Origin: Shewanella litorisediminis
Lineage (GTDB): Bacteria; Pseudomonadota; Gammaproteobacteria; Enterobacterales; Shewanellaceae
Direction: 5' to 3'
Assembly: GCF_016834455.1 (NCBI RefSeq)
Contig: NZ_CP069213.1
Location: 1,488,501 to 1,552,500, forward strand
Length of the DNA: 64,000 nt
The position numbers and the translations under genes are program-made. This document shows, piece after piece, positions 20,374 through 27,123 of the stretch. How positions within the stretch are numbered: the stretch's first letter is position 1; each line of letters begins with the position of its first letter. The notes beneath the pieces are model-generated. The model was not told the origin of the DNA. It worked only from the letters and a program-made list of their open reading frames with translations, and ran no database searches.

Positions 20374-20440
20374 TGCACATTGTTTCATGCAAACTACTTA
20401 AATTCTTGCTGGCTTAAGCCCCAGTCACTCCTTATACCCG

Positions 20441-20494
20441 CTTGGGGCGCTTGGGGCGCTTGGGGCGCTTGGGGCGCTTGGGGCGCTTGGGGCG
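20441..20494. repeat. Six perfect copies of a 9-bp unit
   Basis: CTTGGGGCG is repeated six times without error, then breaks down into CTTGGGGG. Noncoding on both strands apart from chance reading through it as Gly-Ala-Trp. Copy number is likely to vary between strains. Confidence 0.95.
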
Positions 20495-20663
20495 CTTGGG
20501 GGTTGGGCTCCCTAATGCCCTAATGCCTTATTGCCGCGTGGCGTTTTTACCCTGTTGCAGGCTGTCTGAATGCTGAACCGACGGCTATAACATACTCAGG
20601 TTTCATTGAAATTACACAAGGGCGCAGGGATAATGCCGCCGCAAACTTTGAGTTGGGATACGA

Positions 20664-22527: not shown

Positions 22528-22613
22528 TCAACGCCCGCATTTGGGGCCGTAGTGAAGCGAAGCGGAACGGAGGTCCAAGCCCCGCAGGGGCGAACAACAT
22601 GCGCTTGTTAAGC
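22528..22613 (-). other. Integron attC site A (distal end of array)
   Basis: Read on the minus strand it starts with GCTTAAC and ends GTTGATA, with internal complementary blocks (GCGCAT near one end, GCGGGC near the other, CCCCTGCGGGG in the middle). 86 bases. It bounds the last cassette, which encodes a 73-residue membrane protein. The fit to the attC consensus is reasonable but the central part is less symmetrical than in the other sites. Confidence 0.65.
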
Positions 22614-22638: not shown

Positions 22639-22860
22639 TTAGAGAAATACCGTAATGCCTAAGGTAATTAGGAATGCCCAAAAAACCAACCCTACAATAA
22701 CAACCAACACACCATCAGGATCGGGAGCTGATTTACTGAAAGGTTTTACGAGTAAATATCCTGGGCCTTTGATCATAATCTCGAAAATGATCTCAACAAA
22801 GACCTCGACAATAAACCGAGCCACGACTTTGAAAGCACTTCCTATTACTTCATCTAACAT
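22639..22860 (-). CDS. Integron cassette 5 product: small membrane protein
   Basis: 73 residues with two hydrophobic segments (about residues 16-30 and 51-70) separated by a proline-rich polar loop. AGGAAAG precedes the ATG at 22860. It lies between attC sites A and B and is read in the same direction as the other cassettes, away from the integrase gene. Family unknown; such orphan small membrane proteins are common in integron arrays. Confidence 0.65.
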   Translation of the reverse strand: MLDEVIGSAFKVVARFIVEVFVEIIFEIMIKGPGYLLVKPFSKSAPDPDGVLVVIVGLVFWAFLITLGITVFL

Positions 22861-22875
22861 CGATTTCTTTCCTAG

Positions 22876-22932
22876 CGCTTAACGCTTAAATCAGCCGACG
22901 CGTTAGCGGTCGGCTGAATTTACTTGTTAGCA
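22876..22932 (-). other. Integron attC site B
   Basis: Short (57 bases) but very symmetrical. On the minus strand it runs GCTAAC...GTTAAGC with arms AAATTCAGCCGAC and GTCGGCTGATTT. It overlaps the stop codon of the FRG-domain gene, as is usual for cassette genes. Confidence 0.85.
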
Positions 22933-23633
22933 GTTTCACCTGACAACTCCCTCATGAATTCATCATGATCAGCCCAGTATCGTCTGTTCTCGAGAGTCCA
23001 GCACATATGTGAAGATAGACCATCCAAATCACCCATTAATGTCAACTTATTAATTCCATAATGATTTAACTCGAACAGCATTTGACGCTTATATGCAGCC
23101 TTGATGATATGAACTTCAAGCTTGTCTTTTGCAGTTAAACCTTTTGATAACTCCACTTCGGGTTTGGGGTGCGCCGTAAACAAGCCACTTTGACGGCCTA
23201 TTCTAGAGGCGACCATAGTAGGTTTATATTTTGCGATATTTTTATGGTTACCAGGCTTAGCGTTTTCCGGGACAATGTTCAAATTGGGAAGCAAGCAATA
23301 TATTGCTGCGTCCTTTTCAGGCTCTGAGAGCGATGCGAAAAAAGCGGCAACTAGTGGGTTATAAGTCCAATCCAATAATCTCGTAGGTAATCCATGGTGC
23401 TGGGCTATTGCCATCCATTCCCATTCATTTTCAGGTTTAATTTGGATGTATTCAGATGCTTTTCGTTTCCAGCTTGCGAAGTAATCTAGATCACTTCTTT
23501 CTGAATAGGGCGCTCTACCTGCTTTCGGTATAACAGCCCAATCTGAGTTCGCTTGACCGCGAAACATCCATCGATTGTCCTTTCGATAGGCGGAAAAAGC
23601 TTCATGAAAATCTGAAAAAGAGTTTATGTCCAT
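22920..23633 (-). CDS. FRG-domain protein (integron cassette 4, second gene)
   Basis: 237 residues from the ATG at 23633. FRG domain: WMFRGQ at residues 22-27, the conserved proline/arginine block AVIPKAGR after it, and AQHHGLPTRLLDWTYNPLVAAFF at residues 77-99, split here as AQHHGLPTRLLDWT and YNPLVAAFF. The biochemical activity of FRG is not established. An AAAGG site seven bases upstream supports this start, which lies 22 bases after the stop of the preceding coiled-coil gene. Longer in-frame starts at 23678, 23717 and 23768 would overlap that gene. Both genes lie within one cassette. Low GC compared with the core. Confidence 0.75.
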   Translation of the reverse strand: MDINSFSDFHEAFSAYRKDNRWMFRGQANSDWAVIPKAGRAPYSERSDLDYFASWKRKASEYIQIKPENEWEWMAIAQHHGLPTRLLDWTYNPLVAAFFASLSEPEKDAAIYCLLPNLNIVPENAKPGNHKNIAKYKPTMVASRIGRQSGLFTAHPKPEVELSKGLTAKDKLEVHIIKAAYKRQMLFELNHYGINKLTLMGDLDGLSSHMCWTLENRRYWADHDEFMRELSGETANK

Positions 23634-23655
23634 ATCACTGCCTTTTGCTATCGCT

Positions 23656-24342
23656 TTAAGAGCTGCTGCTTGAAGCATCCGAGTTACTTGACTTGTTAGC
23701 TTCACACTCTCCGTCATTTGAAGAAATAATCCCTCGAGAGTGCTTTGAAACAAACAAAGAATACTCATTACTAATTGAATATTTACTATTTAAGGCGCTA
23801 ATCTGGTCAATTAGAGCTTTTCCTCGGTAATACCTATTGGTGTAATCTTTATCACACCAATCCGGTTTTCTAATATTGACTCCTAAAGCAGAAAACTCAT
23901 TCATAGCTTTCAATATTAATTCTTCAGCCTTCGCTTTCAGGGCTTTTTCAGAATAATATGAATGGAGCTCGTTAATTTCTTTAACTTTTTTCTGGTATTG
24001 TTCAATTAAAATATTAAGATCATTTTCTTTAACTTTAATCGCGTCGCTTGTTATGGAAAGCTCAAACTCTTTTTCTTTCAACTCTGACTGTGATATCGAC
24101 TTTTCTTTCTCCAGCTTAAATTCTGCGTCCTTCAGTTCCAATTGCAGATGCGACTTTTCTTTTTCTAATTTTATCTGTGCATCTTTCAGACTTAGTAACT
24201 GTGTTGATACAGCATCTTTATCGGCCTGCACTGCTTTGTACTCATTCCACAAAAAAGCGCTTGCAACTGCAAAGAAAATAACAAAAGTTAAAAATCCTGC
24301 TAAGTAGGATTTAATTGCATCAAAAGTGTCTTTAAAATTCAA
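23656..24342 (-). CDS. Coiled-coil membrane protein (integron cassette 4, first gene)
   Basis: 228 residues from a TTG start with a good AAGGA ribosome site. One membrane helix is at about residues 13-32 (LAGFLTFVIFFAVASAFLW), followed by a long charged heptad-like region (about 35-150) with repeats around KLEKEKS and KEKEFEL. The C-terminal domain has several aromatic and Cys residues (KPDWCDKDYTNRYYRGKAL), and the tail is Ser-rich (DASSSSS). I do not recognise a family. The layout, an inner membrane anchor plus a coiled-coil stalk, resembles sensors or scaffold proteins. It is followed by the FRG gene in the same cassette. Confidence 0.7.
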   Translation of the reverse strand: MNFKDTFDAIKSYLAGFLTFVIFFAVASAFLWNEYKAVQADKDAVSTQLLSLKDAQIKLEKEKSHLQLELKDAEFKLEKEKSISQSELKEKEFELSITSDAIKVKENDLNILIEQYQKKVKEINELHSYYSEKALKAKAEELILKAMNEFSALGVNIRKPDWCDKDYTNRYYRGKALIDQISALNSKYSISNEYSLFVSKHSRGIISSNDGECEANKSSNSDASSSSS

Positions 24343-24379: not shown

Positions 24380-24504
24380 CTAACGCCCGCCTAAGGGGCT
24401 GGCAACGCATAACACTAAACTCAAACGCAACAACTGCAACCACCGCGGCTCAATGGGACTGGAAACGCCACGCGTTGACAGTCCCTCTTGAGGCGTTTGT
24501 TAGC
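24380..24504 (-). other. Integron attC site C, VCR-type
   Basis: 125 bases. On the minus strand it begins GCTAACAAACGCCTCAAG and ends CTTAGGCGGGCGTTAGCC. The whole length, including the inner blocks GGGACTGTCAACGCGTGGCG and CCAGTCCCATTGAGCCGCGG, matches my memory of the Vibrio cholerae repeat almost base for base. It bounds cassette 3. Confidence 0.9.
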
Positions 24505-24505
24505 T

Positions 24506-24850
24506 TTATGTGATCGAATAGACAGCAATTGCTAAACCTATATTCACAAATAATGTTAAAGCACTTAGAAGATAATTCAGACCTGGTATTTGGAGAATGC
24601 CTGATGCAAATGCACCAGCAATAACCGCCAAAACAAAGTAAAGACCTTCAAGAAACCCATTACCGTAATCAGAACCGACAAAATATGCTGCAGGGATTAT
24701 ACAAAACCACCCACCTAGTCCACCTAAACTGGATAAAAGACCCATTACCTGATTTGAATATCCGTAACCAACAAAACGTCGAACCTGTTTTTCGACAAGG
24801 GCATTGGTACCAACAAAATACCCCATCAAAGCACCTATAAAATACTCCAT
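24506..24850 (-). CDS. Integron cassette 3 product: small membrane protein
   Basis: 114 residues with three or four hydrophobic helices (GALMGYFVGTNAL, GGWFCIIPAAYFVG, LYFVLAVIAGAFASGIL, LLSALTLFVNIGLAIAVY). The stop codon lies at the edge of the VCR-type attC. Family unknown. It may have arrived with that attC from a Vibrio array. Confidence 0.7.
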   Translation of the reverse strand: MEYFIGALMGYFVGTNALVEKQVRRFVGYGYSNQVMGLLSSLGGLGGWFCIIPAAYFVGSDYGNGFLEGLYFVLAVIAGAFASGILQIPGLNYLLSALTLFVNIGLAIAVYSIT

Positions 24851-24877
24851 TTATTTCCCCAATTTTTAATAAATAAA

Positions 24878-25005
24878 GCTAACGCCGCATTAAGTGGTGA
24901 GCGACGCTAAACACCTATGCTTCGACAAACCACTTAAAACGCAAAAACTGAATTTACACTAAAAACACCAAGCGTTGTGAATCTATCTTAAATGCTTTGT
25001 TATGT
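24878..25005 (-). other. Integron attC site D
   Basis: 128 bases. On the minus strand it runs CATAACAAAGCATTTAAGAT...CACTTAATGCGGCGTTAGC, with complementary ends (CATTTAAG/CTTAATG) and the R'/R'' cores in place. Ends the lipoprotein cassette's neighbour (cassette 2 boundary). Confidence 0.85.
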
Positions 25006-25012
25006 GATTGGG

Positions 25013-25366
25013 TTAATATTCACACTTAAACGCTTTGCCAATGGCAGTTGTGTTGGTAGTGCCTAGTGAACCCCAAGCATTTGTGTTTGCCATACCTTCC
25101 ACGTAAACAACATTAGCACCTAGTTGAAAGGCTTTATTTTTGAGCTCATTTCGAGCTCCAATAATCAAATCTTCATTTGAAGTGAAATCACCAGTTACCC
25201 AATTACCTTGGCTACCTACAACTTCACCTAAATACTCACAGTGAGCTCTGTCCGGGCGCTCTGTGGTCAGCTCTACTTTTTCGGCTCCTTCAATAATCGG
25301 TTTCGCGGCACACCCAGAAAGGATAGCGATAAATAGTAACCCGACCGATAACTTAAACTTTTTCAT
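25013..25366 (-). CDS. Integron cassette 2 product: DUF4156-type lipoprotein
   Basis: 117 residues. Lipoprotein signal MKKFKLSVGLLFIAILSGC with the lipidated Cys at position 19. The mature part reads CEYLGEVVGSQGNW...ARNELKNKAFQLGANVVYVEG, the DUF4156 pattern. Expected in the periplasm, attached to the outer membrane (residue after Cys is Ala, not Asp). The start at 25366 is chosen over a longer one at 25396 because AGGGAG lies nine bases before it and the signal peptide begins there. Confidence 0.8.
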   Translation of the reverse strand: MKKFKLSVGLLFIAILSGCAAKPIIEGAEKVELTTERPDRAHCEYLGEVVGSQGNWVTGDFTSNEDLIIGARNELKNKAFQLGANVVYVEGMANTNAWGSLGTTNTTAIGKAFKCEY

Positions 25367-25424
25367 TAGAACAAACTCCCTACATAAAAAAGGCACATCA
25401 TACCATGTGGATTACGAATAATCA

Positions 25425-25513
25425 CATAACGTCCGCGGTAATGGGGTGGCCTGTAGCATAGTGAGGAACGAACGACGCGGTAGGCCACTCCCAATTAACC
25501 GCGCTTGTTAGGC
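25425..25513 (-). other. Integron attC site E (proximal)
   Basis: 89 bases. On the minus strand it runs GCCTAACAAGCGCGGTTAAT...ATTACCGCGGACGTTATG, with arms GGGAGTGGCCTA and TAGGCCACCCC nearly complementary. Ends the first cassette. Confidence 0.85.
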
Positions 25514-25555: not shown

Positions 25556-25753
25556 TTATGTTTTTGTGTTTGCAAACTGTGATACTAGTTTCAAATCCAT
25601 AATCGAGTCCTGCCCTATTAGTCTTGTTGTGCCATCCTCTCTTTCTACTCGATATGACTTTGGAGTTTTTTTGATGCACTTCACACCTTTCTCATATTCA
25701 ATATCGTAGCGGCCAGCCATGAAAGCCACATCATAGAATTTACCTATTTCCAT
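25556..25753 (-). CDS. Integron cassette 1 product: small soluble protein
   Basis: 65 residues, charged, no signal peptide or membrane segment (MEIGKFYDVAFMAGRYDIEY, later GTTRLIGQDSIMDLKLVSQF). GGAAAATGAT precedes the ATG. It lies in the cassette closest to the integrase gene, the position normally filled by the most recent insertion and read from the cassette promoter. I do not recognise it. Confidence 0.6.
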   Translation of the reverse strand: MEIGKFYDVAFMAGRYDIEYEKGVKCIKKTPKSYRVEREDGTTRLIGQDSIMDLKLVSQFANTKT

Positions 25754-25791: not shown

Positions 25792-26056
25792 GCCTAACAT
25801 TTGTATAGTGCGCATGCGCATAATCTCACATCTGACCACTTGGTGAAATCTCACGCAACACGCTGTTTTTAAATTCGATTTTTAACTTAGCAAAAATCAT
25901 CCTGGGTGGAAAGTGCGCATGCGCATGATTTGCGCTCGCTTTGTTTCGCGCACCATTTTTAAGTCTATGAATTTACTAAAGCTATAAAAAGTGTTTCAGA
26001 AATAGTGCGCACATTTTTTGTCGTTTGAGCTGGCAAAATCATCCATTTTAAAATAA
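25792..26056. other. Integron attI region
   Basis: GCCTAAC at 25792-25798 (GTTAGGC on the minus strand) is the core where the first cassette joins attI. The rest, up to the integrase promoter, is gene-free. It contains two copies of AGTGCGCATGCGCAT (25807-25821 and 25911-25925), each holding the 12-base palindrome TGCGCATGCGCA, and a partial third (AGTGCGCA near 26005). The cassette promoter should lie here or at the start of the integrase gene, but I cannot place it. Confidence 0.65.
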
Positions 26057-26090: not shown

Positions 26091-27123
26091 ATGGCCTATC
26101 AAAGTCCGTTTCTGCAGGGCATTCGCGAAGAGATGCGGATGCGTGGTTACAGTATCCGTACAGAAAAGACATATCTGTATTGGATAAAGGCCTTTATCCG
26201 TTTTCACCATAAAAGGCACCCGGCAGAGATGGGACAACCGGAGGTCGCACAGTTTCTGACCTTTATCGCCAATCAACGCAATGTGGCAATAAACACCCAA
26301 AAGACGGCGTTAAATGCGCTGGTCTACCTTTATCATAAGCACTTGCATCAGGAACTTGGCAGCCTTGGTTTTCATTACGCCAGCAAACAGCGATTCCTGC
26401 CTGTGGTACTGACCGTTGATGAAGTAAAGCGCATTCTGAATTGTCTGGAAGGACGTAGCCGCCTGATTGTCGAAATGCTTTACGGTAGTGGCCTGCGGAT
26501 CTCTGAATGCCTCAGACTCAGGATCCAGGATGTCGATCTTGAGCATCTGTCTTTAACAGTGCGGGACGGTAAAGGCCGCAAAGATCGCAAAACAATGCTC
26601 AGCCAACATTGTGCGACGGCATTGCAATCATACATAACCACCGCCATAGCCCTTCAGCAGAAAGATAACCTACAAGGCCTGGGGCCATCGCTGCCCTATG
26701 CACTTGGGCGCAAATATCCCAACGCGTTCAGAAAATCTATCTGGATGTTTGTCTTCCCATCACATGCAATCTGCCATCATCCCATTACGGGGGTGTTATG
26801 TCGGCATCATCTGCATCAGAGTGTTGTGCGTAAAGCGCTGGCGGTCGCCGTTGCTAAATCTGGGGTCAACAAGCGGGTGACTTGCCATACTTTTCGTCAC
26901 TCATTTATAAAATACTTCCCTGTATTTTCCCCTTCGGGCCAGCGGAGCTGTTCAAATTCAGTCCCGCTGAATTTGTGCCACTCATCTTTTGCAGGCCGGT
27001 TACGATATCCGCACCGTGCAGGAGTTGCTTGGTCACAACGATGTGAAAACGACGCAAATTTATACCCATGTACTGGGTCAACACTATGCCGGGACTGTAA
27101 GCCCACTGGATAGACTGACATAA
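26091..27123 (+). pseudogene. intI: Integron integrase IntI, interrupted by a 70-bp insertion
   Basis: Tyrosine recombinase of the integron type. The N-terminal SAM-like domain is at residues 1-90. The catalytic domain has the first Arg in YGSGLRISECLRLR, the integron-specific extra region LPYALGRKYPNAFRK and FVFPS, and HTFRHSF with the conserved H and R. The frame is then broken: 26907-26976 (70 bases) is inserted between TTT and GCC. Afterwards the original frame resumes as [20 protein letters not shown] and ends at 27123 with the second His and catalytic Tyr ([12 protein letters not shown]). Read through, the gene gives an altered 340-residue product lacking the Tyr, so integrase activity is presumably lost. 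Without the insert it would encode about 320 residues. Confidence 0.85.
26907..26976. repeat. 70-bp palindromic insertion inside intI
   Basis: Contains three inverted repeats: AAAATAC/GTATTTT around 26910-26928, CCC-TTC-GGG around 26930-26938 and AAATTCAG/CTGAATTT at 26954-26974. The length (70, not a multiple of three) explains the frameshift exactly. It looks like a REP-type or other short mobile palindromic element. No open reading frame. Confidence 0.8.

Follow-up and report, generated by a model that had tools for sequence, protein, structure and literature searches.

VCR-type attC sites and cassette exchange

The Vibrio cholerae repeats (VCRs) are the attC sites of the V. cholerae superintegron. 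Cassettes enter integrons when an integrase acts on the site's bottom strand in its folded form, with insertion mostly at attI. The VCR bottom strand has been described with VchIntIA, and the Shewanella integrase SonIntIA is active, according to passages of PMC3053210, and part of PMC8191803 places cassette uptake in V. cholerae mostly at attIA. Transfer of attC sites among Vibrio species has been published: in a section of PMC1382264, 151 of 173 V. cholerae sites fall in one clade together with four sites from other species. Vibrionales-type attC sites are also known from resistance cassettes, at 4 of 108 in a portion of PMC8352920, with PMC2600354 as a further reference.

The locus described here lies in a Shewanella litorisediminis chromosome; "the window" refers to the whole 64,000-nucleotide stretch analysed. 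The attC site of its third cassette matches the VCRs of the V. cholerae superintegron in length, both ends, arms and inner blocks, with up to 99% identity, but it occurs only once, within an array of five cassettes in another genus, beside a gene that was not seen next to a VCR elsewhere in what was searched. Plasmid arrays with resistance cassettes also have VCR-type attC sites outside Vibrio, whereas the window's array is chromosomal and has no resistance family among its family matches. Like the Shewanella integrons described in part of PMC9229058, it is a short array beside a chromosomal integrase gene, and two-ORF cassettes occur in both; however, the word VCR is absent from that text. 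A Vibrio cassette gene has likewise been published in S. oneidensis (a section of PMC1382264). That gene was inserted non-specifically away from the integron, in its authors' reading, whereas the cassette in the window is complete and lies inside an array. Among the titles and abstract openings searched, there was no description of a VCR-type attC in Shewanella chromosomal arrays, which is not a claim of absence from print. Cassette traffic between aquatic bacteria is already known, and the site in the window is a further case.

A five-cassette array beside an interrupted integrase gene

Five cassettes on the minus strand lie beside an integron integrase gene on the plus strand (26091..27123). 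This gene is interrupted by a two-hairpin insert of about 70 bp (26907..26976, plus strand, ends approximate). Ahead of the insert, the gene reaches 304 bits against the integron integrase model TIGR02249 (cut-off 265), and the insert shifts the frame, so that the intact integrase of a complete, active integron is missing. With its integrase gene broken in this way, the array may now be frozen. It is common for intI genes to be broken, nearly one third of them in a passage of PMC2426708.

The insert is found at the same integrase position in five genes of four genomes (the window's gene, L022, L078, L079 and L080, among 97 genus genomes searched), and a second integrase-like gene in the window's own genome, found via the insert, has it as well. 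It is 98.6-100% identical across two integrase types, the left flanks of which are only about 61% identical. In L079, a type-1 left flank is combined with an extra 15-base insertion otherwise present in type-2 right flanks (L022 and L080), an arrangement of sequences that suggests that broken integrases have recombined with each other, with site-specific insertion as a possible alternative. Other genus genomes have part-elements related to the insert (L081-L091), with a common CTTCGGGCCA core and differing hairpins. Judged by eye, several of these lie within an apparent single conserved coding sequence, which we take to be a REP-associated transposase. Elsewhere in the window, an intergenic tandem run of approximately nine-base units (gcttggggc) is present at 20440-20503.

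The putative attI crossover point, GTTAGGC, is at 25792..25798 (minus strand), and cassettes 1-5 start at the G|TT points 25798, 25430, 24883, 24384 and 22883. Their own ends are complementary over 7, 10, 10, 5 and 8 bases, respectively, versus 3-5 bases in 20 wrong pairings of the array. All genes and attC sites of the array are on the minus strand. Cassette 1 consists of a 65-residue ORF (25556..25753), which has no plasmid match, and an attC at 25430..25513. Cassette 2 encodes a DUF4156 protein (25013..25396) and has an attC at 24883..25005. Cassette 4 (22920..24342) seems to contain two overlapping ORFs (228 residues, and a 282-residue FRG-domain protein) with one short attC (22883..22932). 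The FRG-domain protein is 45% identical to an S. baltica plasmid protein; a plasmid search with the 228-residue ORF found nothing. Cassette 5 has a 73-residue ORF (22639..22860) and an attC at 22532..22613.

Cassette 3 (24384..24882) begins directly after the G of the G|TT at 24883, ends on the G at position 24384, and includes a 114-residue ORF (24506..24850) followed by an attC site (24380..24504). Its ends are complementary over 10 bp in their own pairing and over 3-5 bp with those of the other four cassettes; thus, the ORF and the site form one unit. Chance neighbourhood of the two was considered and rejected, as the complementary ends speak against it. The same comparison was mixed in a control, Vibrio sp. 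HDW18, where own pairs have at least 8 complementary bases in 8 of 14 cases and 3-5 in the other 6, while cross pairs have a mean of 4.2, with 6.6% at 7 or more and a highest value of 11. The low own-pair values may reflect the pairing of non-adjacent sites, since the sites were located by exact VCR motifs alone.

The attC site of cassette 3

The preliminary description of this DNA called the site at 24380-24504 nearly identical to the VCR. It is indeed a full-length VCR-type attC, with both arms identical to the VCR consensus and 95.9% identity to it over the whole repeat, above the 90% taken to mark a VCR; against individual copies, identity reaches 99%. The core ends, AGCTAAC and GTTAGCC, are each one base off the strict consensus (RYYYAAC-like and GTTRRRY-like) and are those of an attC. 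It departs from the Vibrio consensus at four places, all of them in the central part: three substitutions and a gap of one base. This is within the spread of the 50 Vibrio copies compared (2-9 differences each). Chance is excluded as a source of the similarity: the best match has an E value of 1.2e-57, and the global score against the VCR consensus is 111, compared with 9.5 for the best of 200 shuffles. In unconstrained DNA folding, strong hairpins form to a similar degree on the bottom strand (-28.1, z -4.5) and on the top strand (-27.3, z -5.0). The two ends are unpaired in the minimum-energy folds, and the imperfect arm-to-arm hairpin with extrahelical bases of an attC bottom strand is not among them. 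Scanned against Rfam at gathering thresholds, the window gave no match.

The other four attC sites of the array were said to differ strongly. This holds with respect to the VCR consensus, to which the sites of cassettes 1, 2, 4 and 5 are 51%, 68%, 33% and 46% identical (identities are divided by the longer sequence, by which short sites score low by construction); however, that of cassette 2 closely resembles another Vibrio-like type of attC.

The nearest copies of the site are one difference away over approximately 122 columns, in the Vibrio-like genomes G571 and G549 (rows L046 and L047). Full-length alignments at 99% involve two sites in G571 and one in G549, and sites in these two and in G524, G597, G528 and G545 are 98-99% identical to that of the window. 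Given their many candidate sites and the agreement of named records, these six genomes are read as Vibrio. Among named records, the S. xiamenensis plasmid pNUITM-VS2_1 has a site that is 97.6% identical (3 differences), and sites on V. fluvialis and V. cholerae plasmids are 96.8% identical. Vibrio sp. HDW18 has at least 40 VCR places matching the site; its listed place is 96.0% identical, and copies within a 16.7 kb stretch reach 97.6%.

Distribution of VCR-type sites

The window's genome has one VCR-type site, not the many of a superintegron, and hence the site is referred to as a VCR-type attC, not as part of a superintegron. Copy numbers given here are first-look counts, and the number of candidates scored per genome varies by search (2, up to 4, or 6). 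Seven Vibrio-like genomes have more than 100 first-look candidates. There are 143 in G571 and 181 in G549, the 40 scored in each being listed at 95-99%; across the six genomes nearest to the window site, counts are 132-183 in five and 35 in G528. In a Vibrio-like genus (g22), 119 of 216 genomes are matched.

In the window's own genus, a match is found in 34 of 129 genomes, its own included. Nine of the 128 others have a full-length site at 89% identity or more, in one or two copies each, with up to 6 candidates scored per genome. By eye, the ORFs upstream of the VCR-like sites in the genus are unlike the window's gene and mostly unlike each other, several being acetyltransferase-like. That VCR-like sites recur in the genus agrees with a native or convergent origin there, as does the tree described below, whose well-supported branches require no more than one origin of the Shewanella rows. 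The low copy number, the different types of the other attC sites of the array, and the single difference in about 122 columns, central part included, which is very close for convergence, all argue the other way, and such an origin is highly improbable.

Origin of the site in the Vibrio pool is the preferred reading, and similar sites are found well beyond Vibrio. In an Aeromonas-like genus (g35), 17 of 37 genomes are matched, 6 of them with a full-length site at 89% or more. Plasmids have VCR-like sites in 56 records from at least ten genera, 28 of them typed conjugative, with identities of 92.6-97.6% in the 40 records listed; the one record inspected has a VCR-type attC beside dfrA14 and qnrVC6. 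No VCR was found in phage records. Since VCR-like sites are present in g35 and in plasmids of at least ten genera, the last donor of the site may or may not have been a Vibrio. The cassette might have come from a plasmid, or from a Shewanella or Aeromonas-like genome that already had VCR-type cassettes, Vibrio being only the remote source of the site. The full-length sites in the genus, in g35 and on plasmids fit this route, as does the S. xiamenensis plasmid site at 3 differences, but a search for the 114-residue gene found it in none of the plasmid records and, within the genus, in the window's genome alone (1 of 129), and the nearest sites by distance are Vibrio-like. Passage through such an intermediate host has close to an even chance of being correct.

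Distances and phylogeny of VCR-type sites

Distances and a tree were obtained for 71 rows, consisting of the window site and 70 sites with at least 88% identity over nearly the full length. These 70 were kept out of 92 full-length sites (HDW18 14/17, Shewanella 9/14, g35 9/15, Vibrio-like 36/43, S. xiamenensis plasmid 1/2 and f10 1/1). From the window, distances are 1-12 differences to the 36 Vibrio-like rows, 4-8 to the 14 of HDW18, 5-14 to the nine Shewanella rows and 5-18 to the nine of g35; short distances are favoured among the Vibrio-like rows, as a large part of these are the best of numerous copies. HDW18, with its copies taken from one stretch, offers a fairer yardstick, and the nearest chromosomal site of the same genus (L027) and the nearest g35 site (L065), at 5 differences each, are as close as most of the HDW18 copies. 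A closer relationship to other Shewanella sites than to VCRs, which would have spoken against the preliminary description, is not seen, as the nearest same-genus chromosomal site is 5 differences away and the nearest Vibrio-like one 1, although Vibrio is sampled more heavily and in part through pre-selected best copies, and only 3 differences separate the window site from the one on the S. xiamenensis plasmid.

In the tree, the window site groups with two Vibrio-like rows with support of 99/84, and thus falls among VCRs; the tree as a whole is poorly resolved, with 48 of 65 inner branches open and a bootstrap that had not settled. Sites are not sorted by genus. The Vibrio label requires 17 changes, against a mean of 17.5 when labels are shuffled, and 235 of 500 shuffles are as low. 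The ten Shewanella rows (nine chromosomal and one plasmid) are scattered, with ten label changes against a shuffled mean of 9.5. Repeated arrivals from a common pool would fit the Shewanella rows best.

The gene of cassette 3 and its relatives

The 114-residue protein is probably a small membrane protein, as judged from four predicted long helices; it has no Pfam or NCBIfam match. An AlphaFold model built from five sequences has four helices at modest confidence (mean pLDDT 68) and matches no PDB fold at E 0.001 or better, and a profile search of solved structures found none up to E 1. A likeness to small four-helix transporters, suggested by size only, was dropped as no PDB fold matched. The gene has a GC content of 38.6%, compared with 55.2% for the window.

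The nearest relatives in genome_contigs are from Arsukibacterium ikkense (73%) and Marinobacter (70%), followed by two from MAGs, one proteobacterial (61%) and one, partial, of Marinobacter (67%). The relative in the Marinobacter record sits after an attC-like sequence and, by eye, seems to be within an array there too. There is no Vibrio among these four loci, which were found with exact peptide patterns that detect close relatives only, in a collection that has one genome per species and covers a small part of the Vibrio cassette pool. A protein search across 394 genomes of the order gave matches in two, that of the window and G217 (52-54%). A profile search matched 2 of 212 Vibrio-like genomes, G642 over the full length and G536 with a weak partial match containing a stop. 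By eye, the G642 relative (52%) is a cassette with its own, different attC. No homologues were confirmed in viral contigs. Thus, the gene family moves as cassettes, and its pairing with a VCR is seen only here, within what was searched.

The preliminary description proposed a recent import of cassette 3 from Vibrio. For the site, origin in the Vibrio pool is well supported; recent import of gene and site together from a Vibrio array is not, as no Vibrio with both was found in what was searched. The expected Vibrio match to the gene is a weak one, consisting of the G642 relative with its different attC and the partial G536 match, with none in genome_contigs or plasmids. A narrower reading, in which the whole cassette, gene and VCR together, arrived directly and recently from a superintegron of the V. 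cholerae group, would agree with the 99% identity of the site to superintegron copies of that group, with the presence of the gene's relative as a cassette in a Vibrio-like array, and with the counterpart of cassette 2 on a V. harveyi plasmid, described below. It is set against the failure to find any Vibrio with the gene and a VCR in genome_contigs (exact peptide patterns), in plasmids or in 212 Vibrio-like genomes (profile), and is a tentative reading, somewhat doubtful in this narrow form.

Cassette 2 and its links to Vibrio

Cassette 2, which the preliminary description missed, has a closer counterpart. Positions 24987-25423 of the window are 92.9% identical in DNA over 437 bp to the V. 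harveyi plasmid pVH2, where the cassette ends look decayed by eye. The attC of cassette 2 is 95% identical to a site in the Vibrio-like genome G249, which by eye sits after other sequence, and 93.4% identical to a V. navarrensis plasmid site. It also has weaker matches over a wide range, in 55 of 295 genomes of the order (19 of 99 genera) and in 158 plasmid records (71 Vibrio and 59 Pseudomonas). Thus, the VCR is more strictly a Vibrio type than this attC. On the sequence comparisons, cassette 2 appears as more direct evidence of exchange with Vibrio than cassette 3.

Origin of the cassette and implications

It is likely that the VCR-type attC and the 114-residue ORF form a cassette whose site came from the pool of V. 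cholerae-group Vibrio by horizontal transfer. The distance of the site, its 99/84 grouping, the copy number in Vibrio, the low GC of the gene and the links of cassette 2 support transfer. Weighing against this reading are the non-Vibrio nearest relatives of the gene, the 52% Vibrio-like relative with another attC, the VCR-like sites in g35 and on plasmids, a tree unsorted by genus, a Vibrio sample biased towards short distances, and unconstrained folds that lack the arm-to-arm hairpin. With respect to the site itself, the Vibrio pool is probably the source.

Entry would have begun with an integrase recognising the site's bottom strand in folded form, and the circular cassette would have inserted at attI or another attC, with later insertions leaving it in third place. 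The site may have reached the lineage directly, or via a plasmid or another host, and the 114-residue gene may have joined its VCR outside Vibrio. With the local integrase broken, the cassette should stay put unless another integrase acts in trans.

More broadly, VCR-type sites could act as a cross-genus adaptor, parting from Vibrio genes and joining unrelated genes outside Vibrio. This is unlikely; if true, related cassette genes would have different attC types per host, as with a VCR here and another type in a Vibrio-like array, and attC type would no longer show the origin of a gene. From the survey, VCR-type sites seem to turn up singly and repeatedly throughout the Shewanella genus. The cassette is a clean case of exchange linking the repeat pool of V. 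cholerae with another genus, and it sets a limit on inferring the origin of a gene from its attC, as the site and the gene point to different sources.
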